A program made the position numbers and the translations under genes. The notes under the pieces were generated by a model. It saw only the letters and a program-made list of their open reading frames with translations. It did no database searches and was not told where the DNA came from. A DNA stretch of 29,476 nucleotides from Saccharofermentans sp. (GTDB lineage Bacteria > Bacillota_A > Clostridia > Saccharofermentanales > Saccharofermentanaceae): the NCBI GenBank assembly GCA_024692105.1, contig JAILMZ010000007.1, positions 1 through 29,476 on the forward strand, in the 5' to 3' direction. Below are positions 1 to 23,380 of the stretch, one piece after another (position 1 is the stretch's first letter; each line of letters starts with the position of its first letter).

Positions 1-200
1 GTGTATATGCTTCCGAGGGCAGCGACGATATCTCTGTCTTTAATACCGTCGCCGACAAAATCCAACCCGTAGACTGATACAAGCGTCTCGCGCATGTAGT
101 CGATAAAACCTTCCATACCTGCTACGCCTTTGTATTTCGCAGTCTTGTCATTCACGATATCCCTGAGACCGTCTAATGCATCTGACATTACGTTATCCAT
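1..200 (-). CDS. Hypothetical protein, C-terminus cut by window edge; paralogue of the next gene
   Basis: The first 66 codons of a gene that runs off the left edge, read leftwards from an ATG at 200. An AGAAAGGA ribosome site lies just upstream, inside the end of the preceding gene, whose stop is only 3 bases away, so translation is probably coupled. The product begins MDNVMSDALDG and looks soluble. Residues 18-32 follow the pattern D-K-x-A-x-Y-x-G-V-x-x-M-x-x-F, which recurs at exactly the same residue numbers in the adjacent 135-residue protein (E-K-x-A-x-Y-x-G-V-x-x-M-x-x-F). I therefore read the two as tandem paralogues. I recognise no family. The operon context, downstream of an AAA+ ATPase, suggests a partner or substrate of that ATPase, but this is inference. 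Confidence 0.75.
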   Translation of the reverse strand, partial: MDNVMSDALDGLRDIVNDKTAKYKGVAGMEGFIDYMRETLVSVYGLDFVGDGIKDRDIVAALGSIY

Positions 201-203
201 AAT

Positions 204-611
204 TCACACGTCCTTTCTTCTGTTAAAGATACTGTCCTTAAATCTCTTGAACCTGGCCTGACATCTCTTCTTCTCAAGAGCCTTGTAATCAATCTTGATG
301 TCGACCTCGGGCGGAAGATCGCACGGACTGTTCATGAAGTCCATGAACGCCTTCCTTGCGGCCACTTCCTCGGGTGAGAGGAGACCGGCCTCGGCCCTGT
401 AGTGACGTTCTTTCCAGGAGACGTCCTGACGAACGGCCTCGAGGTGGCCTGTGTCCAGACGGCCGTCTATGGCCCTGAACGCGTTATCGAGTTTGGCGCC
501 CTTGAGGAAGTAGTAGAAAGCCTTCATGCTCTCTACGCCTTCGTACTCGGCCATCTTCTCGTCGAGCAGCTTGTCTGTCTCCGCCCAATAGACTTCTAAC
601 TTCTTATCCAT
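204..611 (-). CDS. Hypothetical 135-residue protein, paralogue of its downstream neighbour
   Basis: Starts at ATG 611 behind a clear GGAAGGAG site. The protein is charged, appears soluble and helical, and has no signal peptide or membrane segment. Its N-terminal part carries EKMAEYEGVESMKAF at residues 18-32, aligning without gaps to the next gene's N-terminus. The C-terminal third is basic (KKRCQARFKRFKDSIFNRRK), unlike the acidic N-terminal half, and could bind nucleic acid or an acidic partner. It lies 33 bases after the AAA+ gene and 3 bases before the next gene, so the three form one transcription unit. I do not recognise a family. The reading frame is supported by both flanking ribosome sites and operon spacing. 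Confidence 0.75.
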   Translation of the reverse strand: MDKKLEVYWAETDKLLDEKMAEYEGVESMKAFYYFLKGAKLDNAFRAIDGRLDTGHLEAVRQDVSWKERHYRAEAGLLSPEEVAARKAFMDFMNSPCDLPPEVDIKIDYKALEKKRCQARFKRFKDSIFNRRKDV

Positions 612-644
612 ATCCTTACTCCTTCCCGGAGGACCGGCCGCGGC

Positions 645-3524
645 TTACGCCACGAAGCCGATCCTTCTGCTGTTGTGTGTATCCGGATCGAGTTCCGGAG
701 CTTCGATATCCTCGGCCGTGATGGTCGTGAGGATGTCGTTCGTGAGGACCGATTCGTCCATCTTGTACACCCTCAGGGCGAGGTTGGAGATGGCCAGTTC
801 GACGGCCTTCCTGACGTAACGTCCGTTACCGAAGGTCTTGTTGCGGGAGGCAATCTCGTAGATGGGCGCGAGCTTGTCGATGGCTTCGTCGGTAATCTTC
901 ATGTGCCTCTGAGCCACCTGGTAGCGGGTTATCTCGCACAGCTCCTTGACGGTATAGTCGTCGAAGTGGATGCGGTAGGCTATCCTCGAGGACATACCGG
1001 GGTTACGGTCGACGAAACGCTTCATCTCTTCGGGGTATCCCGCGAAGATGACGATGATGTCGTCCTTGCGGTTTTCCATCTCCTGGACGATGGTGTTGAT
1101 GGCCTCGTCGCCGAAGTTGCCGCGGGAGGTACCGTCGTCGAGCGAGTATGCCTCGTCGATGAAGAGCACGCCGCCGTTGGCGTCCTTGAACTTCTTCTTG
1201 ACCTTGGGCGCGGTCTGGCCGACAAACTCGCCAACCAGGTCGCCTCTCCCGGCCTCGACGAAAACGCCCGATGAGAGCACTCCCTCGTCCTTAAGAATCT
1301 GCGCCAGAAGGCGTGCGACGGTAGTCTTAGCGACGCCGGGATTTCCGGTGAAGCACATGGACATCGCGTTCCTACCGATGTCTATGCCGTCCTTGCTGAG
1401 ACGCTTCTGCATCTTGAACGTCGCTATGGCTTTCTCGATGACCTGCTTGGCGCTGGTAAGGCCTATCATAGCCTCGAGCTGTTCACGTGCGGACCTGCCG
1501 TCAGACGCTTCACCCTTGCGGGTCTCGCCGTCATTCGGGTTCACGTAAGAGTCGTCCGGGATGAATACGTCTTCCTTGGTTACCTTGTAGAGCTTGGATG
1601 CGGGGATTTCGTCCCCGTACTTCTTGGCAAGTCTCACAGACATATTGAGCGTGGACTTCTCGGCGAGGTTCCTCGCATAGCGGCCGTTGCCGAAATCTTC
1701 GATGCGGCAGGCCTTCTCGAAGATATCACGTGCGGATTCCAATGCACCCGGCGTGGCAGAATACCCGTCCTGCTTCAGGATGTACTCGTAGATATGCACG
1801 AGTTCATCCGCGTTGTAGTCAGGGAAGTTCACCGTGTACGGTATCCTGCTCTTGAGGCCCTCGTTCACTTCGATGAAACGCTGCATCCTCTCCTTGTAAC
1901 CGGCGAAGATGACGATGACGTCGTTACGGTACGTCTCCATCTCACGGATGAGCGCCGTGACCGCGGTATCGCTCGTAAGGGCATACGCTTCGTCTATGAA
2001 GAGCACGCCGCCCATAGCCGCTTCAAAGGCCTGGTGGATGCGGAATGCGGCAAACATACCGTTCAGTTCGACGCCGGTCCTGACCGCGAAAGCACCGCTC
2101 GCAAGGATGCCTTCCTGCTTCAGGATGCGAGCTACGAGCTCGGCGACCATAGTCTTAGCAGACCCGGGGTTGCCGGTAAAGCACATATGCATCGTGCGGC
2201 TCTGACCGCCGTGCTTCTTGCGCTGGCGCTCGGCCTTAGAAGCGAGGATGATGTTGTCGACCTGACGCTTGACCGACGTAAGGCCGGTCAGGCTCTGGAG
2301 CTGCTCGTAGGCGTCTCTGGTGTCCGTATCACGGTCGATGCGGAACCCCGCGTCCGTCTCGATATCGTACGCCATGAGGCAGTTCTTCCTGATGGCCCAG
2401 GACTCGAAATTCTCGAACGCCCTGAGCACGTCGGTCTGCGTGTATACCTTCTGAGGCATCGTCTTCAGGAACTCGCCCGCCTGATCGGCGTAAGCCGCAA
2501 GCTCGGAGTTCAGGATGATGTGCTTCAGGTAGTCCTCGGCCGCGCCGGCGTCGCCCTTACCCTCGCGAATCTTCATAAGGAAAGTGAAAGATTGTATCTG
2601 AGGGAGGAGAGTGAACGCGAACCCCGGGTCGTCCATATCGTAGACGAACACGAACAGGTTGTCGTTACGGTGCTTCTTGATGACCTTGCACAGGTAGTCG
2701 CAGGTTGTCTTGTAGGTGGTCGGATCCGTTCCGAACCTGCCTGACATATCCAGGACTATCGTGCCGCCGTGCGAGTTCTCGATGAGTTTCTCGAAGGTGG
2801 CGGGGTGCTTATAAAGGTCATAGTCTATGTCCGTGATAAGCTCCACTCTTCCGCCGGGAAGTCTGCCCGCTTCGGCGAGAGCCTGCATAAGCGTGAGCGT
2901 TATGTCGCGTCCGGCTTCCATGCCTTTCGCTGAGATAACGTAGTGCACGGGGATGGCACCGACCGGTTCAGCGTGCTTCTTGGAAGAATCACACTTCTTT
3001 ATCCTGCCGAGCTCGTCCGTAAGGGACGTGTCCGCAAGGTAGACCGCTGTGCCTGTGCCGGCACCCTTGCGTGCGACCGCTTCATCGAACTTGAAGCCGC
3101 ACCTTCCGGTTACGATGCACTCTCTGTCGTCCCAGATGAGGTTGTTCGCCTGGTCGATCATTCTCGACCAGTACTGCGTCAGACCTCTTCTCTTGGCCTC
3201 AAACATCTTGACGTCGAAATCGATCATCGTAATCTCGACCGGAGCTGTCGTCTTGACCTTGGTCCCGAGTACGTAGCCTACGGTGGCCATTATCTCGCCC
3301 ATAGCCTCGTCGGAATCTCTCTTTCTCTCGTCGACGGCGTAGACTGCCTTGAGGCAGTCGTTGTCCGTGTTGTAGATGAGAAACGACACTCCGTTCGTAA
3401 GATTTCTATACAGATAATTGACCAATGCTTCCACATTGCTCTCGTATGAGAAATCCTTCAGTCTGACTGTCTCGGACTTGATTTCTTCGGCCTTCATCTT
3501 CATCTCAAATTCGTAGTATCTCAT
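645..3524 (-). CDS. AAA+ ATPase of the CbxX/SpoVK type, two AAA modules plus a degenerate N-terminal AAA-like region
   Basis: A 959-residue ATPase. The start at 3524 was chosen because AGGAGG (3534-3539) sits 10 bases upstream; the longer frame from 3599 adds 25 residues with no ribosome site. Residues about 405-650 form one AAA module (P-loop GNPGSAKT 451-458, Walker B VLFIDE 507-512). Residues about 680-945 form a second (GNPGVAKT 727-734, VLFIDE 786-791, pore-type loop GDLVGEFVGQT 761-771). Both P-loops have alanine where GxxxxGK[ST] has glycine before the lysine. Residues about 205-335 look like a third, decayed AAA copy: GGTIVLDM at 253-260 replaces the Walker B, and there is no P-loop. 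Residues 1-200 match nothing I know. Tandem AAA modules of this family occur in CbbX-like remodelers, SpoVK and type VII secretion EccA. The gene leads an operon with two small paralogous genes and is divergent from a WYL regulator. Confidence 0.9.
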   Translation of the reverse strand: MRYYEFEMKMKAEEIKSETVRLKDFSYESNVEALVNYLYRNLTNGVSFLIYNTDNDCLKAVYAVDERKRDSDEAMGEIMATVGYVLGTKVKTTAPVEITMIDFDVKMFEAKRRGLTQYWSRMIDQANNLIWDDRECIVTGRCGFKFDEAVARKGAGTGTAVYLADTSLTDELGRIKKCDSSKKHAEPVGAIPVHYVISAKGMEAGRDITLTLMQALAEAGRLPGGRVELITDIDYDLYKHPATFEKLIENSHGGTIVLDMSGRFGTDPTTYKTTCDYLCKVIKKHRNDNLFVFVYDMDDPGFAFTLLPQIQSFTFLMKIREGKGDAGAAEDYLKHIILNSELAAYADQAGEFLKTMPQKVYTQTDVLRAFENFESWAIRKNCLMAYDIETDAGFRIDRDTDTRDAYEQLQSLTGLTSVKRQVDNIILASKAERQRKKHGGQSRTMHMCFTGNPGSAKTMVAELVARILKQEGILASGAFAVRTGVELNGMFAAFRIHQAFEAAMGGVLFIDEAYALTSDTAVTALIREMETYRNDVIVIFAGYKERMQRFIEVNEGLKSRIPYTVNFPDYNADELVHIYEYILKQDGYSATPGALESARDIFEKACRIEDFGNGRYARNLAEKSTLNMSVRLAKKYGDEIPASKLYKVTKEDVFIPDDSYVNPNDGETRKGEASDGRSAREQLEAMIGLTSAKQVIEKAIATFKMQKRLSKDGIDIGRNAMSMCFTGNPGVAKTTVARLLAQILKDEGVLSSGVFVEAGRGDLVGEFVGQTAPKVKKKFKDANGGVLFIDEAYSLDDGTSRGNFGDEAINTIVQEMENRKDDIIVIFAGYPEEMKRFVDRNPGMSSRIAYRIHFDDYTVKELCEITRYQVAQRHMKITDEAIDKLAPIYEIASRNKTFGNGRYVRKAVELAISNLALRVYKMDESVLTNDILTTITAEDIEAPELDPDTHNSRRIGFVA

Positions 3525-3533
3525 TCCCTTTTT

Positions 3534-3539
3534 CCTCCT
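3534..3539 (-). promoter_or_regulatory. Ribosome binding site deciding the AAA+ start
   Basis: A perfect AGGAGG on the minus strand, 9 bases before the ATG at 3524. It favours this start over the upstream in-frame ATG at 3599, which lies close to the predicted promoter and lacks a ribosome site. Confidence 0.8.
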
Positions 3540-3562
3540 GTGATTTCGTTTTGATTGACACA

Positions 3563-3592
3563 AACATAGCAAATTCGAAATGCCGTTGTAAA
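3563..3592 (-). promoter_or_regulatory. Candidate sigma-A promoter of the AAA+ operon
   Basis: On the minus strand, TTTACA (3587-3592) is followed after 18 bases by TATGTT (3563-3568). Transcription would begin near 3556, just ahead of the AAA+ ribosome site. The match is moderate. The divergent WYL gene begins at 3679, so the regulator could act here. Confidence 0.4.
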
Positions 3593-3678
3593 GGTTCAAA
3601 TGAAACTTGTATGGGCAAATTTTGACCTATCCTCGCGAATATATTATTCTTGTATAAAAGAGGGAAGGAGAAGTAAAA

Positions 3679-4731
3679 ATGGCTACCAAAAAATACTCCG
3701 TTCTGGCGGTGTTGGATGTGCTGAAAGAGTACTCGGATGAAGAACACTGTTTGAAGATCAAAGACATAAAAGAGCATATCCAAAAGCCGCCTTATAAGAT
3801 CGACGTCAGCGAGAAGACGATCAGAAGTGATCTTAGGGCACTTTATGATTTCGGGTACGATATCAGGTTCGCAAACATTTACTCGCGCGTTATGGTTCAC
3901 AGCGACGGCACTGTGCTGGATTCCGATATCAATACCGGGTGCTATCTCGTGGGAGATGTGTCGGATGAAGACATCGAGATATTGTACGATGCACTTCTCA
4001 GCGAGAAGTATCTGCCCGACAAAAAGTATAAAGAATTAGTCGGCAAGCTTACCGGACTCTCGTCGACTGTTGATTTCTCTTTGAACGAGAAGGGTGCTGC
4101 CAAAGAAAAACCAGACATCGTTGCTGCCGATATTATGTATGACAACATAAGGCGGATACGCAAAGCAATAGTCGAACATAAGAACATCACGTTTAGATAC
4201 ACTTCACTTGGAAACGGAAATGTGGTGGTGTGGCAGAGAGGTAAGACAAGATGTCTTTCGCCGGGCCGCGTGTTCAAAGAAGACGGTGTGTACTACCTTG
4301 CAGGTTTTGAGAGGACTGAGTCCGAAGGAGATCAGTATACTGTCCTTCGCATTGAGTTGATGCGTGATGTTGAGCAGACGGATAGACCGCGTTACGATTA
4401 CTACGATATATCCATGAGCGGTCTGGATAAGTATTACTTTGCGCGGAAAAGATTCAAATTGATGACGGATGATCAGTATCATGTGTCATTTAAATTCCCG
4501 GATGAGCTTGGTCAGGCAGTGATCGATTATTTTGGTCCTAAAAGTCTTATATTAAAAGCAATTGAAAAAGAAGAGGGGAAGCTATTCTATACTGCTCAGA
4601 TGACTATGCCGAGCGGGGCGGTTATTAAGTTTGCAAAGATGTACGCACCTGATGTCGAGATACTGGGGCCGGCAGAGCTGAGAGACTCGCTGAAGAAGGA
4701 TTTCGCGGCAGCTGCAAAGAAACACAAATAG
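3679..4731 (+). CDS. WYL-domain transcriptional regulator with N-terminal winged helix
   Basis: A 350-residue regulator of the DeoR/WYL type. The first 60 or so residues form a winged helix-turn-helix, with the recognition stretch SEKTIRSDLRALYDFGYDI. Residues about 150-235 form the WYL domain, an SH3-like ligand-sensing fold; its signature appears here as GVYYLAGF, with tyrosine for the usual tryptophan. A C-terminal extension resembling the WCX region follows. Start ATG 3679 is preceded by GGAAGGAG. It is divergent from the AAA+ operon (154 bases apart) and is the obvious candidate to regulate it. WYL proteins commonly respond to nucleotides or nucleic-acid fragments; the ligand here is unknown. 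It ends 147 bases before the SseB-like gene, and a short T-run after its stop lacks a convincing hairpin. Confidence 0.88.
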   Translation: MATKKYSVLAVLDVLKEYSDEEHCLKIKDIKEHIQKPPYKIDVSEKTIRSDLRALYDFGYDIRFANIYSRVMVHSDGTVLDSDINTGCYLVGDVSDEDIEILYDALLSEKYLPDKKYKELVGKLTGLSSTVDFSLNEKGAAKEKPDIVAADIMYDNIRRIRKAIVEHKNITFRYTSLGNGNVVVWQRGKTRCLSPGRVFKEDGVYYLAGFERTESEGDQYTVLRIELMRDVEQTDRPRYDYYDISMSGLDKYYFARKRFKLMTDDQYHVSFKFPDELGQAVIDYFGPKSLILKAIEKEEGKLFYTAQMTMPSGAVIKFAKMYAPDVEILGPAELRDSLKKDFAAAAKKHK

Positions 4732-4814
4732 CCTTTTTTGTTGTCAAGTCAAAAATGTCCGTTTATTTGGACACAACCTGTAGTAGATTTAGACCAACGA
4801 AGAAACTACTGCGA

Positions 4815-4850
4815 TGATCCCTTAAGCTCCGAACAAGGAGCCTGGGGTCA
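4815..4850 (+). promoter_or_regulatory. Leader hairpin ahead of the SseB-like gene
   Basis: An outer stem TGATCCC (4815-4821) with GGGGTCA (4844-4850), containing one G-T pair, encloses an inner stem GCTCC (4826-4830) with GGAGC (4837-4841) around a six-base loop. It ends 14 bases before the GCAGGAGG ribosome site. An upstream short dyad TGTCC/GGACA lies near 4755-4774. It could be a leader structure or a weak terminator; it has no T-run. Confidence 0.45.
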
Positions 4851-4878
4851 TTATTATCATCTGCAGGAGGAATTAATT

Positions 4879-5382
4879 ATGTTTGACGAGTTTGATTTTG
4901 ACTACAACAAGAGCCTGAAGGACGCACTGGCATCAGCTGCCGAGAACTACTCCGAGGAGAACTGGGCAGAAGTCATTTGCCACCTGACGGCAGGCATTAT
5001 CTGCAACGAGGAGATTCTCATCCCCGTCCCCAAGCTTGCCTTTATGAAGGTCGAGTTCGACCCGGACGCAGAGTTCGAGGACATCTTCCCTGAAGACCTG
5101 CCGGAGGACGACTACTCCATCGTGGAGATGCCCGACGGCCGCTTGTGGCTCCCGCTCTTCACTGACGAGGACGAGGTCAATGAGATGACCTCAACACACG
5201 ACCCCAATAGCATTCCTCTGCGCGAGGCCTTCGAGATGGCCTTGGCCAACGGGGAACTGGCAGGTGTCCTTATCAACATCTTCAGTGACATCTTCATCAT
5301 CCCCAGGGAGTTCCTCGAGCGGATTCTCGAGGAGGCCGACAAAAACGCCGACGGCTTCGATGACTTCGAAGACGCCGGCTAA
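4879..5382 (+). CDS. SseB-family protein (SseB N-terminal domain)
   Basis: A 167-residue acidic protein. The start at 4879 was chosen because GCAGGAGG precedes it by 8 bases; the longer frame from 4738 would read through the leader hairpin. The core matches the SseB N-terminal domain: a stretch IVEMPDGRLWLPLFTDEDEV, then ALANGELAGVLINIFSDIFI with IIPREFLERILEEA near the end. SseB was named for serine sensitivity in E. coli; in Firmicutes the domain is usually in small soluble proteins of unknown role, often near secretion or toxin genes. The protein is rich in Asp and Glu and its codons end mostly in C or G, more strongly than in the WYL gene upstream. Family assignment is fairly secure; function is not. 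Confidence 0.7.
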   Translation: MFDEFDFDYNKSLKDALASAAENYSEENWAEVICHLTAGIICNEEILIPVPKLAFMKVEFDPDAEFEDIFPEDLPEDDYSIVEMPDGRLWLPLFTDEDEVNEMTSTHDPNSIPLREAFEMALANGELAGVLINIFSDIFIIPREFLERILEEADKNADGFDDFEDAG

Positions 5383-5471
5383 AGCCGCCCCGCGCCTTGC
5401 GGTTGCCGCTGCGTCAGTTTGATGTCATATAGTATAGTTAGATATATCCGATTCTTGTCCGGAGGTACCGC

Positions 5472-6521
5472 ATGCCGCTTCACATCATCCGCAACGACAT
5501 AACAAGAGTCAAAGCCGACGCCATAGTCAACACGGCCAACCCGAAGCCGGTCGTCGGTGCCGGGACTGACACCGCAGTGTACAAGGCGGCAGGCGAGAAG
5601 ATGCTCCTTGCCGCGCGTAAGCGAATCGGCGTGATCGAGCCCGGACAGGCCGTCGAGACCCCCGCATACAACCTCGATGCAAAGTTCATCATCCACACTG
5701 TCTGCGTTGCTTGGAAAGACGGCAAGTCAGGCGAGTTCGATGTCCTGTCGGACTGCTATTTCAATTCGCTCACACTGGCGGCTGATCTCGGATGCAAGTC
5801 GGTCGCGTTCCCGCTGATCGGCACGGGCTCGTACCGTTTCCCTCGCGAGGATGCGATAGGTATTGCAAAAGATATCATCGAGAAGTTCCTTTTCGCCAAA
5901 GGGAGCAGCATGGACGTGATGCTCGTTCTTTTCGACAAGGAATCGGTGAAGTCCGGCGAGAGCCTTGCGGATAAGATCAAGGCGTACATCGACGACAACT
6001 ATGTCGAGAACGCGGTGGTCGACGAGTACGGATTCACGGCCGAGGACCTGCGCGAGATGTCGTCGCTCAAGAGAAGGCGTGAGAGGTTTGAGGAGACTCG
6101 CGCTACCGGGAATCTCAGGATGCACAGGCTCGAGGTCAAATCTCCCGAAGATGCGGTGCTCGACGTGCAGAAGAGCTTTACCGAGAGATTGTTCGAGCTC
6201 GCAGAAGAGCGCGGCGTCAAGGATTCCGAGCTGTACGGCGGCAAGTATGAGAGATTCTTCTCCAAGCAGGCTTTGAGCAAGATGCGCGCCGACCGCGATT
6301 ACCATCCGTCCAAATACGTCAGCGTGGTGGTGTGCCTCGTGCTCAGGCTTAACCTGCATGAGACGCTCGATCTGCTCGAACGTGCCGGGTTTACTTTAAG
6401 CCACAGCCGCAAGGCCGACATCGTCGTGCGCGCATGCATCGAGAACGGTGTTTACGATGTATATAAGGTCAACGCCAAGCTCGAAGAGTACGGCTGCGAG
6501 ACGTTAAGGCAGATCAAGTGA
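5472..6521 (+). CDS. Macro-domain protein with a C-terminal helical domain
   Basis: A 349-residue protein starting at ATG 5472 behind CCGGAGG. Residues 1-150 are a macro domain, which binds or hydrolyses ADP-ribose derivatives: it has DAIVNTANPKPVVGAGTD near the start and PLIGTGSYRFPREDA as the second ligand loop. A linker around residues 165-220 is highly charged and probably helical. The last 120 residues form a separate helical domain with the pattern SKMRADRDYHPSKYV, VLRLNLHETLDLLERAG and CIENGVYDVYKVNAKLEEYG. I recall this domain type fused to different partners in Clostridia and suspect a regulatory role, but I cannot name it. The protein stands upstream of a DUF6508 gene and an ADP-ribosylglycohydrolase, which fits ADP-ribose signalling or repair. 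No signal peptide is present, so it should act in the cytoplasm. Confidence 0.87.
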   Translation: MPLHIIRNDITRVKADAIVNTANPKPVVGAGTDTAVYKAAGEKMLLAARKRIGVIEPGQAVETPAYNLDAKFIIHTVCVAWKDGKSGEFDVLSDCYFNSLTLAADLGCKSVAFPLIGTGSYRFPREDAIGIAKDIIEKFLFAKGSSMDVMLVLFDKESVKSGESLADKIKAYIDDNYVENAVVDEYGFTAEDLREMSSLKRRRERFEETRATGNLRMHRLEVKSPEDAVLDVQKSFTERLFELAEERGVKDSELYGGKYERFFSKQALSKMRADRDYHPSKYVSVVVCLVLRLNLHETLDLLERAGFTLSHSRKADIVVRACIENGVYDVYKVNAKLEEYGCETLRQIK

Positions 6522-6560
6522 GGAGTTGTTCCTGATCTGGTTGTGTTTTCCCCGATTTTG

Positions 6561-6605
6561 CTACTGCAGATTCAACTATTTGTTGAATAGTAGAGTTCGC
6601 AGTAG
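6561..6605 (+). other. Hairpin with two alternative pairings downstream of the macro gene
   Basis: An inner stem ATTCAAC (6570-6576) pairs with GTTGAAT (6582-6588) around TATTT. CTACT (6561-6565) can extend it by pairing with AGTAG (6589-6593), or CTACTGC (6561-6567) can instead pair with GCAGTAG (6599-6605). The two outer pairings exclude each other. There is no T-run. It lies in the 227-base gap between the macro and DUF6508 genes. Confidence 0.5.
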
Positions 6606-6625
6606 AGATTGAGCGCATTTTGTGA

Positions 6626-6681
6626 CCGGAAAAAGAACACATTTTTCCCGGACAGCAAAAAGGTCAACCTGAGGTTTACCT
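6626..6681 (+). other. Two further hairpins in the macro-DUF6508 gap
   Basis: CCGGAAAAA (6626-6634) pairs with TTTTT-C-CCGG (6642-6651) around GAACACA. Directly after an A-run, AGGTcAACC (6661-6669) pairs with GGTTtACCT (6673-6681) around TGA and is followed by a pyrimidine-rich stretch to 6690. The second could work as a weak terminator of the macro gene. A TACAAT hexamer at 6701-6706 is a possible -10 element for the next gene, without a good -35. Confidence 0.4.
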
Positions 6682-6748
6682 ATTCCTTTTCCGAAGGTCT
6701 TACAATGAGGCCATACCAAGCAAACGGAATGAAGGGAAGGTGAAAGTT

Positions 6749-7186
6749 ATGTATGAGACATTGGTTGAGTTCTTGCCCATGTTGTCCGGTTCGAAATACG
6801 GCGAATGGGTAACATATCCGGGACACGCCGGGACAAGGGAGGACCCGCTCATATTCCCGTGGGTCAAATACGATAAGTGCATTCTGGGTCTGTGCAAGGC
6901 GGTCTACTTGTTCGTTGACGAACACAGGGAACTGGACCTCAGAAGCTACGAGGAGATTCTTTGGAAAAGTGGAATTAAGTGGAACTTGGAGTCCATGAGC
7001 AATGCAGATGTCTCGGTACTGGACGGGACAACGGTAATGGCACTGCTTGTCGCTACGGTGCGCGCCGAAAGGTTTTGCGACGGAGCACTTCTGCAACTGT
7101 GCAACAACGGCAGCATCGCAAAGTGGCTTGAGCGCCTTAAGAAAATCGATGAAGAACGCGAGAAGTTCGATAATTCGGACACTTGA
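6749..7186 (+). CDS. DUF6508-like protein
   Basis: A 145-residue soluble protein. ATG 6749 lies 8 bases after AGGGAAGG, whereas the GTG at 6740 would overlap that site, so 6749 was chosen. The layout matches what I remember of DUF6508: an N-terminal YETLVEFLPML, then DPLIFPWVKYDKC, YEEILWKSGIKW and a C-terminal VATVRAERFCDGALLQLC followed by WLERLKKI. In that family the arginine and glutamate of the RxERFxDG motif are strongly kept, and both are here. The family has no known function to my knowledge; members often stand beside ADP-ribosylglycohydrolase-like genes, as this one does (30 bases upstream of it, same operon). Family call by memory of the motif pattern, so moderately sure. Confidence 0.7.
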   Translation: MYETLVEFLPMLSGSKYGEWVTYPGHAGTREDPLIFPWVKYDKCILGLCKAVYLFVDEHRELDLRSYEEILWKSGIKWNLESMSNADVSVLDGTTVMALLVATVRAERFCDGALLQLCNNGSIAKWLERLKKIDEEREKFDNSDT

Positions 7187-7216
7187 TGTGATAAAAAAAT
7201 ACAGGAGGATAGATCT

Positions 7217-8023
7217 ATGTTTGGAGCAATAATCGGAGACATTGTAGGAAGCAGGTTCGAGTTTGACAGAGGACATAAGACAAAGGAGTTCGAGCTGTTC
7301 ACGGACGAGTGCGACTTCACGGACGACACTGTCATGACGGTCGCGGTGGCTGAGGCGTTGCTGGACGCAGGCAAGGATGCGGACGAGGCCGAGGTCAAAG
7401 AGCACCTCATCAAGTCTATGAAGAAGTGGGGGCAGAAGTACCCGCACGCAGGTTACGGCGCGAGGTTCTTCGGCTGGGTCTTATCTGACGACCCGGAGCC
7501 CTACGGAAGCTACGGTAACGGTTCGGGCATGAGAGTATCTCCCGCAGGCTGGCTGTACGATACCATCGAGCGTACGCGCGAGGTTGCCAGGTGGACCGCC
7601 GAGGTCACACACAATCACCCGGAAGGAGTAAAGGGCGCGGAGTCCGTCGCAGCTGCGATCTTCATGGCAAGGCACGGCGCGTCCAAGGACGAGATCCGTG
7701 ACTACATCGTGAGCGAGTTCGGCTATAACCTCTCCAGGACTTTGGACGAGATCCGCCCGAAGTATCAGCATGTGGAAGACTGCATGCGCACCATGCCGGA
7801 AGCTTTCGAGTGCTTCCTTGAAGCAGAGTCTTTCGAGGATACCCTCCGCAATGTCATGTATATCGGTGGTGACACCGATACATTAGGTGCGATCGCAGGT
7901 GCGGTGGCAGAGGCGTTATGGGGAGTGCCGGGTGACATCATCGAGCGTGCGGATAAGTTTCTGACGATAGATATCGTTGAGGTAATGGCGAGGTTTACAG
8001 TCAGTCTCGGCAAAACAAACTGA
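7217..8023 (+). CDS. ADP-ribosylglycohydrolase family protein
   Basis: A 268-residue enzyme of the DraG/ARH fold, which uses a di-magnesium centre to hydrolyse ADP-ribose bonds on proteins, nucleic acids or small molecules. The N-terminal GAIIGDIVGSRFEF and DFTDDTVMT (about residues 33-41) supply one set of metal ligands; NGSGMRVSPAGWLY is the conserved middle loop; GGDTDTLGAIAG (about residues 217-228) supplies the second set. All expected catalytic acids are present, so it should be active. Length is normal for the family. ATG 7217 follows AGGAGG by 11 bases. It is downstream of the DUF6508 gene and upstream of the SIMPL gene, all on the same strand with short gaps. Its in vivo substrate is not shown by the sequence. 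Confidence 0.93.
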   Translation: MFGAIIGDIVGSRFEFDRGHKTKEFELFTDECDFTDDTVMTVAVAEALLDAGKDADEAEVKEHLIKSMKKWGQKYPHAGYGARFFGWVLSDDPEPYGSYGNGSGMRVSPAGWLYDTIERTREVARWTAEVTHNHPEGVKGAESVAAAIFMARHGASKDEIRDYIVSEFGYNLSRTLDEIRPKYQHVEDCMRTMPEAFECFLEAESFEDTLRNVMYIGGDTDTLGAIAGAVAEALWGVPGDIIERADKFLTIDIVEVMARFTVSLGKTN

Positions 8024-8049
8024 CGGCAAAGGATAAGGGAGGGATGTTT

Positions 8050-8700
8050 ATGAGATCGATTAGAGTTACGGGAAAAGGTAAGATCAAGGTTCATCCTGAT
8101 ATCACCAGGATAACGATGACGCTTTCGGGCGTTGAAAAGGATTATGCTGAGGCGCTTGCGCGTTCGGCGCAGGAGACTGAAGCCTTGAAGGAGTTGCTGA
8201 CGGAGTTTGGATTCGAACGTTCGGACCTGAAGACACTCAGCTTTGATGTGGACACCAAATACGAGTACTACCAGAGCCACGGCGATAGCAAGAAACGCTT
8301 TGCAGGATATGAGTTCACTCACAGACTGAAGGTCGAGTTCTCGTCGGATAACAAAAGGCTCGGTAAGATCCTTTATGCACTTGCCGCAAGTGAGCTGCAT
8401 CCCGATTTCCAGATCAGTTATACGGTGGCAGACCCTGAGGCGTCTAAGAACGAGTTGCTGGGCAAAGCAGTAAAAGATGCGATGACGAAGGCTTCAGTCC
8501 TGGCTGATGTATCGGGAGTAAAGCTTCTGGATATACAGAGTATTGATTACTCGTGGAGCGAGTTGGATATAGAGGTGGGTTCGTTCAATAACTTGTGCAA
8601 GTATGATGGTTCGGTAGGTGGCGGCAGTCTTGATCTTGACATCGAACCCGACGATATCGATCTGACAGATACTGTGACAGTAGTGTGGGAGATCGGATGA
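8050..8700 (+). CDS. SIMPL-domain (DUF541) protein
   Basis: A 216-residue protein. ATG 8050 sits 6 bases after GGGAGGG (8037-8043) and is preferred to the in-frame ATG at 8044 that abuts that site. It opens with RSIRVTGKGKIKVHPDITRI, the typical SIMPL beginning, followed by TLSGVEKDYAEALARSAQET and, later, YEFTHRLKVEF and GKAVKDAMTKASVLADVSGV. The family includes BP26/OMP28-like and IRAK-signalling related proteins that form ring-like or channel-like oligomers, but bacterial function is unclear. Most members are exported; this one has no signal peptide and should be cytoplasmic. It follows the ADP-ribosylglycohydrolase by 26 bases and is probably the last gene of that operon, ahead of a hairpin at 8735-8763. 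Confidence 0.85.
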   Translation: MRSIRVTGKGKIKVHPDITRITMTLSGVEKDYAEALARSAQETEALKELLTEFGFERSDLKTLSFDVDTKYEYYQSHGDSKKRFAGYEFTHRLKVEFSSDNKRLGKILYALAASELHPDFQISYTVADPEASKNELLGKAVKDAMTKASVLADVSGVKLLDIQSIDYSWSELDIEVGSFNNLCKYDGSVGGGSLDLDIEPDDIDLTDTVTVVWEIG

Positions 8701-9486: not shown

Positions 9487-10470
9487 TCAACTGTACGCTT
9501 CAAGGGCATCTGTGTAATAATTCTTAAGTCTATTCTTGAGCGACTTAGGCTTTACGACGACGGCATCCTTGCCGAAACGTCTGAAGTAGTCCTCGAGCTG
9601 CATTTCGGGCCAGTCGAAGTGGTAGAGGTCACCGTTTATGGTGGTGACGGCCGGCCTGTTCTTTACTATCATCCGATACATCTGTTTGCCGTGATCTGTC
9701 AGGCGGACTACGGCGTGGATATCGGGCGCGGCGGAGTGAGGACTGCGGCGGCCTATCTTGGTGAGGGTTTCGCGGACCTTGGGATCGACGGTGAAGGTCT
9801 CGTTTGTTACGAACACATCCTTGAGCCTCGAGATCCTGAAGGTGTGGTCCCTATAGTAAGTGTGGTTGTGGCAGAGAACATAGCTGAATTGCTCTTCCTT
9901 GGAAGTGGCTATAAGGTACGGTTCCATGTAGACCGCCTTGCCTTGAGAAGAGTTGGTCGAAGTGAAGGTGATGACTTTTTTCTCGGCGATCGCCCTGGTG
10001 AGAAGCTCGTATGTCTGCCTGAAGATAATCTGTTCACGCTTGTTACGGGGCATGGACAAATAAGACAGGAACATATCCTTGATATAGCCGGAGAGGGATT
10101 TGTCCCTAAGAAGATTGTTCTCGATTATCCTTATGACATTATAGGATTCGCCGCTCACCGTGAGGGTTATGACTGCACTCTTGCCCGTGGTCTGCTCTGC
10201 AGCGTTAATGTAAGTCGTGATTATCCTGTCGGCCAGGGCAGACGCTTCCTTGACCTTAAGGCCCTTGGCGGAAGTGATGTCTGCGATGAGGGCTTCCAGC
10301 AGTTCGTCGTTGTCGTTCCTGTACTGCTCGAAATAATTGACTAAGAGCTCTTTGAGAAATCCGTTGAGATTGACTGTGCCGTCGGGTCTTGTGAATTCGA
10401 AGAGCTCGGCATCGTTGATAAGCCTTGTTTTGGTGTCCTCGGAGAGGTAGATCTTGTGTTTCTCTGTCAT
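9487..10470 (-). CDS. Ribbon-helix-helix / WYL-domain regulator
   Basis: A 327-residue regulator. Start ATG 10470 lies behind TAGGAG. The first 60 residues (KIYLSEDTKTRLINDAELFE, then VNLNGFLKELLVNYFEQY) look like a ribbon-helix-helix DNA-binding module: a short strand followed by two helices. Residues about 70-145 may hold a second, divergent copy (VITLTVSGESYNVIRIIENN). Residues about 150-230 are the WYL domain, with YLIATSKEEQFSYVLCHNH and FRISRLKDVFV. The C-terminal part (MQLEDYFRRFGKDAVVVKPK) is the usual WCX-like tail. The WYL1 accessory proteins of some Cas13d loci share this RHH-WYL arrangement, but no CRISPR or Cas gene is seen here. A TAGGGGTT box lies directly upstream of its ribosome site, consistent with autoregulation. 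Confidence 0.82.
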   Translation of the reverse strand: MTEKHKIYLSEDTKTRLINDAELFEFTRPDGTVNLNGFLKELLVNYFEQYRNDNDELLEALIADITSAKGLKVKEASALADRIITTYINAAEQTTGKSAVITLTVSGESYNVIRIIENNLLRDKSLSGYIKDMFLSYLSMPRNKREQIIFRQTYELLTRAIAEKKVITFTSTNSSQGKAVYMEPYLIATSKEEQFSYVLCHNHTYYRDHTFRISRLKDVFVTNETFTVDPKVRETLTKIGRRSPHSAAPDIHAVVRLTDHGKQMYRMIVKNRPAVTTINGDLYHFDWPEMQLEDYFRRFGKDAVVVKPKSLKNRLKNYYTDALEAYS

Positions 10471-10483
10471 GCGTAACTCCTAA

Positions 10484-10610
10484 TAGGGGTTGTGAATACT
10501 GGCAAGATTTGCGTAAATGCCTTGATACTACTGATTATATAGGGGTTGCAAACATAAGTCAAACCGCATCTATCAAAACCCCTAACGGCAGAGTAGTATA
10601 AGGTTGCGAA
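10484..10610. promoter_or_regulatory. Repeated TAGGGGTT boxes between the RHH-WYL and Ro60-like genes
   Basis: TAGGGGTTGTGAA (10484-10496), TAGGGGTTGCAAA (10540-10552), an inverted AACCCCTA (10577-10584) and a weaker TATAAGGTTGCGAA (10597-10610) fall within 127 bases of the 289-base divergent gap. RHH proteins usually bind short repeated sites, so this is a probable operator array for the neighbouring regulator. The first box touches the regulator's own leader. The rest of the gap (10611-10745) shows nothing I can name apart from the ribosome site of the next gene. Confidence 0.6.
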
Positions 10611-10759
10611 GTGAAGACACTCACAGCAAATATAGCGGATTTTGATCATGGAAAATGCAGAAACAAAAGTGTCTTGTAAGCTCGCAAATAAAAGGTGCAT
10701 ACAGCAATAGTTTCCATGCAGATCCAGGAAAGCACCTTGTTTTAAAGGAGATAAAGAAA

Positions 10760-12220
10760 ATGCTTAGATTACTTAAAATGCAAGCTAATACCGCATATAC
10801 AGCAAACGGCGCGGTAAGCAATGCAAGCACAATATCTGACTGCCTCGACCTGTTTGCAACGGCCGGCGCTTTAAGAAACGCTTCTGACGAGGAGATCGTC
10901 ACAAGGTTCGTAAGAGCTTTCGCTGAAGACAGGGATATCGCGATGAAGACGCTGTTCTTTGCAAGAGACGTAAGAGGCGGCCTTGGCGAGAGAAGATTCT
11001 TCAGGGTCGTTATGAAGTATCTGGCTTCGAACTACCCTGAGACTGTCAGGAAGAATATCGCTAATATCGCCGAGTACGGCAGATACGACGATATCCTGGC
11101 GCTCATGGATACAGCTTGTGAGCAGGAGGCGGTCGCTTACATCAAGACCGCTTTGGATAAGGATATGGAGGCCATGCAGGCACAGGGCTCCGTATCGCTG
11201 ATGGCAAAGTGGCTGCCTTCTGCAAACGCGAGCAGCAAGGAGACCGTAAGGCTCGCAAGAAAGATTGCCCGCGGCATGGGCGTGAGCGAGGCCGAGTACA
11301 GGAAGATGCTCGTATCTCTGAGAAGCTATATCAAGATATTAGAGAATAACCTGAGGGAGAAGGACTATACTTTCGACTACTCAAAGCAGCCTTCGAAGGC
11401 GATGTTCAAGTACAGGGCAGCATTTATCAAGAACGACTATGACAGATACTGCGCTTTCCTGGACAGGGCGAAGGTAAATCCTTCCGTGCTCAAGACAGGC
11501 ACGCTTACTCCGTACGATATCGTTACTCCTATCGTACAGGGCAAGAAGATGACTGCCGAAGAGAAAGCGGCGCTGGATACTACCTGGAACGCTCTGGAGA
11601 ACTATGTGAACTCCGATAACACTCTGGTAGTGGTCGACGGTTCCGGTTCGATGTACTGTGGTCAGCCTGTATGGCCGGCGGCGGTAGCGCAGTCTTTGGG
11701 TATATATTTCGCCGAGCGTAACACGGGTGCGTTCGCAGGTCACTTCATCACATTCTCGGAAAACCCCAGGCTGGTCGAGATCAAGGGTAAGGATATCTTC
11801 GAGAAGGTGCGTTACTGCATGAGCTTCGACGAGGTAGCCAACACCGATATCGAGAAGACGTTCGATCTGATACTGGATACTGCCGTGAAGAACCATCTGA
11901 AGCAGAGCGATATGCTGGACAGGATAGTAATCGTGTCCGACATGGAGTTCGACTACTGCGCGGATGGTGCGGGTATGACGAATTTCGAGGCGGCCAAGGC
12001 GAAGTTCGAGGCCAAAGGCTATAGCCTGCCGCAGCTGGTGTTCTGGAACGTCAACAGCTGGAACAGACAGCAGCCGGTAACGATGAACGAGCAGGGCGTG
12101 GTGCTGGTGTCAGGTATGTCACCGCAGATCTTCGCGATGTTCAAGGACGACAGGCTCGACCCGTACGAGTTCATGATGAGCGTACTTTCTTCCGGGAGGT
12201 ACGAGAAGATAGCAGCGTGA
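10760..12220 (+). CDS. Ro60-like protein: TROVE-type helical repeat plus vWA domain (DUF2828 family)
   Basis: A 486-residue protein. ATG 10760 follows AAAGGAG by 9 bases and was chosen over a longer frame from 10655. The N-terminal 280 residues are all-helical and repeat-like: EDRDIAMKTLFFARDVRGGL, GERRFFRVVMKYLASNYPE, IANIAEYGRYDDILALMD and LMAKWLPSANASS, as in TROVE/DUF2828 proteins. Residues about 288-480 form a von Willebrand A domain with the metal-site motif VVDGSGSM and later DRIVIVSDMEFD. Ro60/Rsr proteins bind misfolded or Y-type RNAs and help exonucleases in RNA quality control; DUF2828 is a related, less studied branch. It is divergent from the RHH-WYL gene with shared boxes, and its transcript ends at a strong terminator (12262-12286). 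RNA binding here is inference from the fold. Confidence 0.85.
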   Translation: MLRLLKMQANTAYTANGAVSNASTISDCLDLFATAGALRNASDEEIVTRFVRAFAEDRDIAMKTLFFARDVRGGLGERRFFRVVMKYLASNYPETVRKNIANIAEYGRYDDILALMDTACEQEAVAYIKTALDKDMEAMQAQGSVSLMAKWLPSANASSKETVRLARKIARGMGVSEAEYRKMLVSLRSYIKILENNLREKDYTFDYSKQPSKAMFKYRAAFIKNDYDRYCAFLDRAKVNPSVLKTGTLTPYDIVTPIVQGKKMTAEEKAALDTTWNALENYVNSDNTLVVVDGSGSMYCGQPVWPAAVAQSLGIYFAERNTGAFAGHFITFSENPRLVEIKGKDIFEKVRYCMSFDEVANTDIEKTFDLILDTAVKNHLKQSDMLDRIVIVSDMEFDYCADGAGMTNFEAAKAKFEAKGYSLPQLVFWNVNSWNRQQPVTMNEQGVVLVSGMSPQIFAMFKDDRLDPYEFMMSVLSSGRYEKIAA

Positions 12221-19177: not shown

Positions 19178-20011
19178 ATGATCAAGAGTTTAAAGAAGAT
19201 CGTTGAAGGCAAAGTGTTCCAGGGCATCATATTGTTCGTCATCGTGTTCAATGCGGTCATCATGGGCATTGAGACGATCAGGAACCTGAGTGCCGATGCA
19301 CAGTTCGCTCTCGCCACGATCAACACATTGTGTCTCTGCATATTTGTCGCGGAGATCATCGTAAAGCTTCTGGCGTACGGACTTGAGTACTTCAAGGATC
19401 CGTGGAACTGGTTCGACATCATTATCGTCGGCGTGTCCATGGTATCGGGCCTGGCATTCATGTCCGCGTTCCGTGCTGTAAGAGTACTGCGTGTATTAAA
19501 GTCACTCAAGGCTCTGAGGGGAACAAAGCTTATCGGGCATGTCAAAAAGCTCCAGATAATCATCGATGCGATAGTCAAGTCCATCCCGAGCATAGGATGG
19601 ACAGGAGTGCTGCTCCTTCTGATCTATTACATTTTCGCGCTGATCGGAGTCAATCTGTTCGGCGAGGCGTTCCCCGACTGGTTCGGTACGATAGGCAAGG
19701 CGATGTACACTCTCTTCCAGGTCATGACGCTCGAGAGCTGGTCCATGGGTATCAGCAGGCCGGTAATGGCTGAGTTCTCCTATGCGTGGGCGTATTTCGT
19801 GCCGTTCGTACTGCTGTCATCCTTTGTGGTCATGAACGTCGTTGTTGGTATCGTCGTCAATGCGATAGACGAGGTTAATGCCGAAGCCGCAGCAGAGGCG
19901 GCCAATGAAGCTGAGGAGAAAGCCCCCATATCGAACGCGGACCTCGTCAAAGAGATGCGTACGCTCAAGGAGCAGCTTGACCGGATGGAGAAGGCGCTCG
20001 CTGATAAATGA
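19178..20011 (+). CDS. Bacterial voltage-gated sodium channel (NaChBac/NavAb type)
   Basis: A 277-residue one-domain six-helix channel that should assemble as a tetramer in the cytoplasmic membrane. S1 is about residues 14-34, S2 45-68, S3 76-95. S4 (97-116) carries six positive charges at every third position: R99, R102, R105, K108, K111 and R114, a complete voltage sensor. S5 is about 140-162. The pore loop has the selectivity filter TLESWS (184-189), identical to that of NavAb and diagnostic of sodium selectivity; S6 is about 205-230. The C-terminal neck is acidic and ends in a coiled coil (LVKEMRTLKEQLDRMEKAL), as in BacNaV tetramers. Length is typical (NaChBac has 274 residues). Rare in gut Clostridia as far as I recall. 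Possible roles are pH or sodium homeostasis, or motility. Confidence 0.93.
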   Translation: MIKSLKKIVEGKVFQGIILFVIVFNAVIMGIETIRNLSADAQFALATINTLCLCIFVAEIIVKLLAYGLEYFKDPWNWFDIIIVGVSMVSGLAFMSAFRAVRVLRVLKSLKALRGTKLIGHVKKLQIIIDAIVKSIPSIGWTGVLLLLIYYIFALIGVNLFGEAFPDWFGTIGKAMYTLFQVMTLESWSMGISRPVMAEFSYAWAYFVPFVLLSSFVVMNVVVGIVVNAIDEVNAEAAAEAANEAEEKAPISNADLVKEMRTLKEQLDRMEKALADK

Positions 20012-21530: not shown

Positions 21531-22373
21531 ATGACGATAATCGAGAACAAGACATTTGACGAGGAGAGAGCTCTGTACGGAAGCAGGCAGGTCGAGGCTG
21601 TAAGATGCCGTTTCGACGGTCCCGCTGACGGTGAAAGCGCTTTCAAGGAGAGCAGTGAGATCGTGGCAAGAGACTGCTACTTCAACCTCCGCTATCCCTT
21701 CTGGCATGTAAATGACCTGAAGATCGATTCCTGCGAGATGACAGAGCTCTGCCGCGCTGCGCTTTGGTACTCATCCGGCATGGAGATAACCGATACGAAG
21801 ATGCACGGCATCAAGGCCCTGCGCGAGTGTAAAGACGTAAAGATCGCGCACTGCGACATCGTCTCTCCCGAGTTCGGCTGGAGCGTGAACGGTGTGTTCA
21901 TGAACGACACATCCGCCCAAAGCGAGTACTTCATGATGAGGTCTTCCAAACTGGAATTCAATAAAGTCAGACTTACCGGCAAGTACTCGTTCCAGTACAT
22001 AGAGGATTCGATCTTTACCGGCTGCGAGTTCGATACCAAGGATGCGTTCTGGCATGCAAAGAACGTTACCGTCCGCGACAGTTATGTTAAGGGCGAGTAT
22101 CTTGCGTGGTACTGCGAGAACGTGACTTTCGAGAACTGCACGATCATCGGCACCCAGCCCCTTTGTTACTGCAAGGGTCTGCGCCTGATAAACTGCCGCA
22201 TGGAAGGGTGCGACCTGTCCTTTGAGAAATCAGAAGTCGATGCGGATGTTACGACGGCCATCGACAGTATCAAGAATCCCAAAAGCGGAAAGATCGTCTG
22301 CGCCGGCACCGGCGGTATCATCATGGACGATCCGGAAGCGCGCGGGGAGATAATAGTAAGAGAGGAAGAATAA
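21531..22373 (+). CDS. DUF3737-family protein (right-handed beta-helix)
   Basis: A 280-residue soluble protein opening with IENKTFDEERALYGSRQVEA, the DUF3737 start. Short repeated units follow in which a cysteine, aromatic or aliphatic residue recurs about every 20 residues (CRFDGPADGESAFKES, DCYFNLRYPFWHVNDLKI, CEFDTKDAFWHAKNVTV, YCENVTFENCTI, YCKGLRLINCRM). This is typical of a beta-helix related to pectin-lyase-like and pentapeptide folds. Family members occur widely in Firmicutes, often next to acetyltransferase or oxidoreductase genes; function unknown. ATG 21531 follows GAAGG. Its stop overlaps the next start (TAATG at 22371-22375), so the two are translationally coupled. The many cysteines suggest a reducing cytoplasmic location. 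Confidence 0.88.
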   Translation: MTIIENKTFDEERALYGSRQVEAVRCRFDGPADGESAFKESSEIVARDCYFNLRYPFWHVNDLKIDSCEMTELCRAALWYSSGMEITDTKMHGIKALRECKDVKIAHCDIVSPEFGWSVNGVFMNDTSAQSEYFMMRSSKLEFNKVRLTGKYSFQYIEDSIFTGCEFDTKDAFWHAKNVTVRDSYVKGEYLAWYCENVTFENCTIIGTQPLCYCKGLRLINCRMEGCDLSFEKSEVDADVTTAIDSIKNPKSGKIVCAGTGGIIMDDPEARGEIIVREEE

Positions 22374-23380
22374 TGATCCGTTATATTGAAGACGAGACAA
22401 GGCGTGCGGCGATCGCACGCGAGATCTTAGAGGCCCTGCCCGAGTGGTTCGAGGTGGAAGAGGGCCGCGAAGGGCTTATCAAAGAGTCCGAAGAGAACCC
22501 CGTATTTGCTGCGTTTGAGACGCGCGAGGATGCAGATTCCGATAATGGACGCGCCATAGGTTTTATCACGATCAAGGAGACCGGCAGGGATACTGTAGAG
22601 ATAGCTGCGATGGGCGTCCGTAAGGAGTGCCACGGCGGCGGTATTGGAACGAGGCTTTTCGAAGCCGCGAGAGATTATGCCGTGCAGAAGGGATACTCAT
22701 TCATGCAGGTCAAGACCGTCCGCGAAGGCATGTACGAGGACTACGACAAGACCAACCGTTTCTACCGCAGCGTCGGCTTTTCCGAACTCGAGGTCATCGA
22801 GGATCTGTGGGATGCAGATAACCCCTGCCAGATCTATGTCATGGGCCTCAAGTCAGCCGTAAACACGATCCTCACGCGCCACAGCTACCGCGGTGCATAT
22901 TCTTCCGAGGCGGTCCCGCGTACTGACCTCGAAACGATCGCACGCGCAGGCATCGGCGCACCTTCAGGATGCAACAAACAGACAACCGAGATCGTTGTTG
23001 TGGATGATGCTGCGACTTTGGATCAGATAAAGACCGTAATAGACCCGCCGGTCGCTGCTACTGCACCCGCTATGATCGTCGTTCTTACCAGAAGGATCAA
23101 CGCTTACCGCGACCGCTGCTTTGCCGTGCAGGATTATTCCGCCGCCATCGAGAACATGCTCCTGGCGATGGTCGAGCTCGGCTATCAGAGCTGCTGGTAC
23201 GAAGGCCACATCACAGACGAGGACCGCATCTGCGATAAGATCGCTGCTATCTTAGGAGTGCCCGATGACCTCGATGTCGTCTGCCTCCTGCCTGTCGGCA
23301 AAGCCGTCGACGAATTCCATGCCCCAAGCAAGAGACCGTTTGCCGAGCGTGTGAAGTTCAATAAGTGGAGTGAATCATAA
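22373..23380 (+). CDS. Fusion of a GNAT N-acetyltransferase and a nitroreductase-family domain
   Basis: A 335-residue protein. Residues 1-162 form a GNAT domain: the acetyl-CoA loop is CHGGGIGTRLFEAA (about 84-97), preceded by EIAAMGVRKE; NRFYRSVGF is the usual C-terminal motif. Residues 163-335 form a compact nitroreductase-like flavin domain: LTRHSYRGAYSSEAVP, GAPSGCNKQT (FMN-binding), DYSAAIENMLLAMVELGYQS and VVCLLPVGKA. No frameshift or stop separates them, and no second ribosome site is evident at the junction. Each half is a normal full-length domain. I do not know this fusion as a described enzyme; it may modify and reduce one substrate in succession. It is coupled by TAATG to the DUF3737 gene and ends at a two-way terminator. 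Confidence 0.88.
   Translation: MIRYIEDETRRAAIAREILEALPEWFEVEEGREGLIKESEENPVFAAFETREDADSDNGRAIGFITIKETGRDTVEIAAMGVRKECHGGGIGTRLFEAARDYAVQKGYSFMQVKTVREGMYEDYDKTNRFYRSVGFSELEVIEDLWDADNPCQIYVMGLKSAVNTILTRHSYRGAYSSEAVPRTDLETIARAGIGAPSGCNKQTTEIVVVDDAATLDQIKTVIDPPVAATAPAMIVVLTRRINAYRDRCFAVQDYSAAIENMLLAMVELGYQSCWYEGHITDEDRICDKIAAILGVPDDLDVVCLLPVGKAVDEFHAPSKRPFAERVKFNKWSES

Follow-up and report, generated by a model that had tools for sequence, protein, structure and literature searches.

A stretch of 29,476 nucleotides (nt) from Saccharofermentans sp. (assembly GCA_024692105.1, contig JAILMZ010000007.1), hereafter the window, opens with a locus that encodes a large AAA+ ATPase, two small proteins and a divergent regulator carrying a WYL domain. 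The layout of this locus, the paralogy of the two small genes and the presence of two intact AAA modules in the ATPase are certain. The reading that we prefer, and that is about equally likely to hold or to fail, is that the locus specifies a dedicated chaperone that remodels its target under WYL control as part of a response to nucleic-acid damage, and that has two intact AAA modules where its shorter relatives have one. The genes concerned are the following.

645..3524, minus strand: ATPase of 959 amino acids (aa), ATG at 3524, stop at 645-647
204..611, minus strand: small1, 135 aa, a member of the helical family whose C-terminal tail is basic
1..200, minus strand: small2, the second paralogue, whose reading frame begins at 200 and is truncated at the window's left edge (66 aa visible)
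3525..3678: intergenic region between the divergent ATPase and WYL genes, ribosome-binding sites located by eye
3679..4731, plus strand: WYL-domain transcriptional regulator, divergent from the ATPase

Transcription on the minus strand runs from the ATPase to small1 (gap of 33 nt) and then to small2 (gap of 3 nt), the tight succession of a tandem-AAA ATPase and two small genes that a sequence-only reading of the window had described. A longer open reading frame (ORF) beginning with TTG reaches 3599; the start at 3524 is favoured by M1 and Y3 of MRYY, invariant in 18 sequences, and an AGGAGG is visible by eye upstream of the ATG.

An ATPase of the SpoVK/CbbX/EccA clade

The ATPase can be divided into four parts.

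Residues about 1-180: N-domain
Residues about 188-385: degenerate AAA-like module, D0
Residues about 404-640: AAA module D1
Residues about 678-945: AAA module D2

D1 and D2 are both intact and the protein ends 14 residues after D2. The features given for the SpoVK/CbbX/EccA clade include a GY signature at sensor 1, a conserved asparagine four positions ahead of the first arginine finger and a sensor-2 arginine (PMC10659427). In the ATPase, the GY signature occupies residues 542-543 of D1 and 829-830 of D2 and is invariant in 18 sequences, and the sensor-2 arginine stands in a GNGR motif in both modules in 18/18 sequences. In the NxGxxSR motif, the N is invariant in both modules and an R is always kept at N+6, while N+4 is mostly K in D1 or S in D2 and is R in CbbX and EccA1. 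The ATPase belongs to this published clade. It is probably a remodelling ATPase, and D0 is probably a dead AAA-like module. Full-length relatives occupy 14 places in 13 of the 115 genomes of the nearest family, the match in genome G030 beginning at position 72. The N-domain and D0 of the 959-aa type occur in 3 of 391 genomes of the class, two of which (G001 and G049) already belong to the family set, and a broader model of these two parts finds 4 of 398 genomes of the phylum. A search of viral contigs with the ATPase gave no relative.

Among solved structures, D2 is nearest to CbbX, with which it shares 38% identity in the structural alignment, and its pore loop, Walker, sensor and lid elements are present; for the ATPase, VIA-align dealt chiefly with residues 405-950 and is therefore uninformative on the N-domain and D0. 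This closeness to CbbX would suit a housekeeping activase in the strict CbbX sense, stripping an inhibitor off one metabolic enzyme, with the WYL gene as a chance neighbour. Such an activase is, however, very improbable: all three equivalog cut-offs of the clade are missed (TIGR02881 SpoVK, 420.3 bits against 422.95; TIGR02880 CbbX, 375.5 against 459.25; TIGR03922 EccA, 321.3 against 466.65), no RuBisCO gene was found among the 15 window genes scanned, and the WYL association, described below, is far over expectation.

Two small paralogues and their link to the ATPase

Small1 and small2 are true paralogues. They match each other in BLASTP (E=3e-4), small2 aligns with the small1-family profile in hhalign (E=2.5e-6, probability 88.8), and a 23-row hidden Markov model built without small2-type rows gives 41.9 bits to the full small2 (public cluster P0106) and 37.7 bits to P0107, the best of 4000 shuffles reaching 9.2. 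The pattern [DE]-K-x-A-x-Y-x-G-V-x-x-M-x-x-F, reported earlier at residues 18-32 of both proteins, is present exactly there and survives a full alignment, in which all 26 rows keep V26 and M29 and the remaining motif positions vary. The basic end that had been assigned to the second protein does exist, but it is carried by small1 (204-611), which comes first in transcription and is second only in plus-strand order. Reading beyond the left edge of the window was achieved through P0106, which is identical across the visible 66 aa and gives a full small2 of 81 aa. This protein represents a shortened form of the family, stopping soon after the '..YRDKAGL' position. The family core covers about 104 aa, with the conserved ..ERxYKAEAGLLSPEEAAARK..DF..SPCDLPPEV, to which small1 adds a basic helix. 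In the family tree, the small2 type forms a deep, long branch; the tree leaves the branch order unresolved and therefore gives no date for the duplication.

Profile searches with both small proteins, as had been proposed, found no Pfam, NCBIfam or PADLOC match (E 0.1), and when 5.8 billion proteins were searched with a family profile, 28 clusters came up at an E-value of at most 1, down to a 46-aa fragment at 2.8e-5. AlphaFold predicts five helices for the small protein (pLDDT 86.6, pTM 0.60), and Foldseek of this model against the PDB returned no usable match (best E 2.6). The small helical family is a domain without a match in any library or fold set searched here. It is present in four of the 115 nearest-family genomes (G001, G030, G077 and G085), and the same four only are found among 188 order-level genomes. 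Named relatives come from a Saccharofermentans sp. metagenome-assembled genome (MAG) and a 'Clostridiales bacterium' MAG (P0099). A scan of public genome contigs with two short patterns found one locus and says little on spread.

The duplicated small partner announced by the sequence-only reading is real in the window, where both copies adjoin the ATPase gene, but it is not a fixed partner, the small gene being next to the ATPase in one of the four genomes that bear it. In that genome, G077, the small gene lies 21 nt from the ATPase gene and is co-oriented with it; the ATPases of G077 and of the window are 63% identical and the small proteins 46%, and the two species are clearly different. Elsewhere, the small genes lie by other genes. 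In G001, the small gene overlaps a TMEM164-like gene; in G085, it precedes a gene for an apparent membrane protein (judged by eye, with no Pfam match above the cut-off); in G030, it sits at a contig edge, and the ATPase gene is on a different contig and is followed by another gene. In this last genome (stretch L053, 115-1940), the small gene stands 2 nt before a DUF2779 gene, and the L049 ATPase stretch also contains a member of the same BLAST cluster. Seen from the ATPase, a small gene stands beside one of the three close relatives (60-63% identical; G077, G078 and G071) and beside none of the 11 remoter full-length ones (41-44% identical), a six-frame check included.

The small genes might be passengers, that is, members of a lineage-specific helical family placed at the ends of unrelated operons, with a job of their own (e.g. 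immunity- or antitoxin-like binding) and independent of the ATPase. The company of DUF2779, TMEM164-like and apparent membrane-protein genes in three genomes, together with the absence of a small gene beside the ATPases of G071, G078 and each of the 11 remoter loci, makes this a serious possibility, if a somewhat doubtful one. Adjacency and co-orientation in both the window and G077 speak against it. So does a possible third adjacency, suggested by the equal longest-contig size (34670) recorded for P0011 (small) and P0023 (ATPase), which are possibly on one contig. Furthermore, a full-length ATPase is found in three of the four small-bearing genomes versus 13 of 115 overall (hypergeometric p=0.0043, uncorrected for kinship). 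The small genes are therefore optional, with some link at the level of the genome, and look like a rare add-on to the ATPase.

The WYL regulator and the proposed damage response

The divergent gene noticed earlier does encode a WYL protein (PF13280, 28.2 bits against a cut-off of 21.8), in which WCX scores 20.2 bits, below its cut-off of 23.9, and which WYL models of PADLOC also match. Its relatives (E 1e-15) occur in 15 of the 115 genomes. Seven of these 15 lie within 10 kb of an ATPase in a list of 50 places (E up to 1e-60), against 0.17 expected from a simple estimate of density. In G071, the WYL gene diverges from the ATPase gene at a distance of 160 bp, as in the window, and its product is 46% identical to that of the window; the other six, 24-27% identical, lie near ATPases with a single AAA module. 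The WYL-ATPase association is therefore probable, and firmer than the link with the small genes. The WYL-side part of the intergenic region 3525-3678 resembles by eye that of stretch L040: window 3600-3678 and L040 4470-4530, both upstream of WYL genes, have AATTT(T)GAxCTATC and TATTATTCTTGTxTAAAAGAG in common, a possible promoter or self-operator. A search of the ATPase-WYL intergenic region for inverted repeats yielded just short or chance-like ones.

Some of the single-AAA relatives sit among RNA-repair genes. At four of their loci, the SpoVK-type ATPase gene is in line with PrfH and RtcB genes, with an ATPase-PrfH gap of 22 nt in L073 and 24 nt in L082 (by listed ORF starts), and a WYL gene occurs in the same stretch at three of the four. 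An FtsH-like AAA-M41 gene is also present at L072 and L075. Family models were run on the L075 members, and the members of the other loci were assigned by BLAST cluster, PrfH exceeding 150 bits in all four. The stretches are as follows.

L072, 9393-14865: ATPase, PrfH and RtcB genes
L073, 12502-16311: ATPase, PrfH and RtcB genes
L075, 498-6119: ATPase, PrfH and RtcB genes
L082, 8239-12132: ATPase, PrfH and RtcB genes

For seven of the 15 WYL relatives (G009, G010, G024, G063, G070, G073 and G085), a PrfH match above 150 bits is present at a distance of at most 10 kb. At a loose E-value, PrfH matches are found in 115/115 genomes, mostly ordinary release factors; 22 exceed 150 bits and 7 pass the cut-off. 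Of the three functions that the sequence-only reading had envisaged, stress is the best supported, through the WYL gene and the RNA-repair islands of the relatives. Secretion finds no support, the EccA cut-off being missed and no Pfam WXG100 or FtsK/EssC match being found among the 15 window genes scanned. The wider gene setting points to stress linked to nucleic acids or nicotinamide adenine dinucleotide (NAD) rather than to secretion.

The third function, defence, would make the locus an anti-phage module in which a WYL-repressed ATPase works with small effector or sensor proteins. WYL regulators do occur together with defence islands (PMC9122601), the L049 ATPase has a McrBC-type pair at most 5 kb away, and a LeoA-like gene (PADLOC; L038 419-4267) stands upstream of the G077 ATPase; the neighbours yield one further LeoA/LeoBC match, probably in the adjoining gene. 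At 1e-15, 66 PADLOC models match the neighbours (112 of the 113 genes lying no more than 5 kb from 14 ATPases, with the small gene removed) versus 16 in controls (120 of 148 genes from 10 regions, 28 being dropped without a fixed rule; 14 control regions had been requested, of which 11 were obtained and one, of 620 bases, was left out). This count of models is not an enrichment, since 12 of the 25 shown are PD-T4-6 models that may share one protein and distinct proteins were not counted. Furthermore, PADLOC has no match for the small proteins and just partial ones for the ATPase (IetA, DolB and others) over its AAA part, and the small family has no relatives in viral contigs nor, with P0012 as query, in plasmid or phage records. 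A defence module is quite improbable.

The studied members of the clade are dedicated chaperones with narrow targets (PMC10659427), and several WYL regulators sense single-stranded DNA (PMC10693628); a WYL-switched remodeler with a specific client is favoured for these two reasons. The WYL protein would sense a nucleic-acid or nucleotide ligand derived from damage and would control the divergent ATPase operon, presumably transcribed as one unit, as well as its own expression. The ATPase would assemble as a hexamer in which a single specific client is recruited through the N-domain and D0; D1 and D2 would hydrolyse ATP, and D2 would thread the client through the pore, leading to its activation or disassembly. 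The small helical proteins, encoded at the end of the operon, would most likely tune the motor as adaptors or inhibitors, or might be clients themselves. A bolder version, speculative and unlikely, is that a WYL-controlled N-D0-AAA chaperone family, hitherto undescribed, serves damage machinery, its single-AAA members acting on RtcB-PrfH repair and rescue and the double-AAA member of the window on another client; the small proteins would form an adaptor pair, one full-length with a basic tail that binds nucleic acids, the other a shortened competitor.

Several observations weigh against the preferred reading of a WYL-controlled damage-response chaperone. For eight of the 15 WYL relatives, no ATPase of the list lies in the surrounding 10 kb, and a WYL relative (E 1e-15) is missing over the same distance at 13 of the 14 full-length ATPase places, G071 alone having one (the G078 ATPase starts 154 bases from a contig end, so that its upstream side is unseen). 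G077, in which the ATPase has a small gene, shows an AlkZ-related gene upstream instead of a WYL gene, and three of the four genome copies of the small family (G001, G030 and G085) are away from the ATPase. Neither an RtcB nor a PrfH gene was seen near the ATPases of the window (among the genes scanned), G071, G077 and G078; the damage-response link is therefore borrowed from the single-AAA relatives. Finally, the profiles of D0 and D1 match each other weakly (hhalign E 0.0027, probability 11%), and the structure model of the ATPase has a pTM of 0.43, which makes its predicted domain packing unreliable.

Other genes near these ATPases and in the rest of the window can be described briefly. A family of about 290-330 aa, helix-turn-helix (HTH)-like by eye and without a Pfam match (one member scanned), is encoded at most 0.5 kb from 5 of the 11 remoter full-length ATPases, all five among the places that have no WYL relative nearby.

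L042, 6500-7366: HTH-like family member
L043, 10855-11838: HTH-like family member
L046, 6662-7525: HTH-like family member
L049, 10533-11432: HTH-like family member
L051, 6457-7359: HTH-like family member

A microbial PARG gene stands beside the ATPase in two genomes (L047 6653-7513, scanned; L049 6702-7541, by BLAST cluster). In the window, the WYL gene is followed on the plus strand (4738-8700) by SseB, macro-domain, DUF6508, ADP-ribosylglycohydrolase and SIMPL/DUF541 genes, the first four types lying between the first WYL gene and a second WYL pair, so that ADP-ribose-related genes stand by the WYL gene. This second pair (9487-12220) is made up of a WYL gene and, divergent from it, a DUF2828/DUF7788 gene, which we take to be of the von Willebrand factor A type. 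The divergent pair recurs in L038 15351-18139 (G077, near the ATPase) and in L080 10973-13778 (G010), where the DUF2828 reading frames are split into two ORFs and followed by an RtcB-like gene. Farther on, an Ion_trans-family channel gene (19178-20011) has a reading-frame start very similar to one in L052 2560-3384, and a single ORF (22373-23380) combines GNAT acetyltransferase and nitroreductase domains.

Comparison with known systems

There are earlier descriptions of the clade, of WYL control and of tandem SpoVK-type ATPases (PMC10659427; PMC11090510). Among the titles and abstract openings searched in the open-licence literature, no description was found of a WYL-SpoVK or WYL-RtcB-PrfH system, of the N-D0-AAA family or of the small family. 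SpoVK of B. subtilis (TIGR02881) belongs to the same AAA+ clade, the window ATPase falling just under its equivalog cut-off, but it has a short N-domain (PMC10659427) and one AAA module in its model, whereas the window ATPase has an N-domain, D0 and two AAA modules. These two modules also distinguish it from CbbX, the red-type Rubisco activase, which it resembles in D2. The likeness to EccA of type VII secretion lies in an AAA module with an N-terminal extension.

The SpoVK-type ATPase of type III-A CoCoNuT systems also has tandem SpoVK-family AAA modules and belongs to an accessory operon; its Walker motifs are restricted to the C-terminal module, which leucine-rich-repeat or barrel domains follow (PMC11090510). 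The window ATPase, by contrast, has kept both of its modules intact, its probably dead module being D0, and it carries no further domain after D2. The ATPases of Selenomonas ruminantium pSRC1 and of a Lachnospira eligens plasmid (WP_014431257 and WP_012740531) combine D0 with AAA and have an annotated WYL gene in their neighbourhood, but, unlike that of the window, they carry a single AAA module and no small-family gene in their stretch. PafBC, DriD, SiwR, BrxR and CapW are WYL regulators located next to stress or defence genes, as here.

Globally, the SpoVK/CbbX/EccA clade is described as comprising narrow, dedicated chaperones with few known clients (PMC10659427). A WYL-linked branch with a probably dead AAA-like front module, accompanied in some genomes by RtcB and PrfH, gives this clade a concrete client space, namely RNA repair and the rescue of stalled ribosomes.

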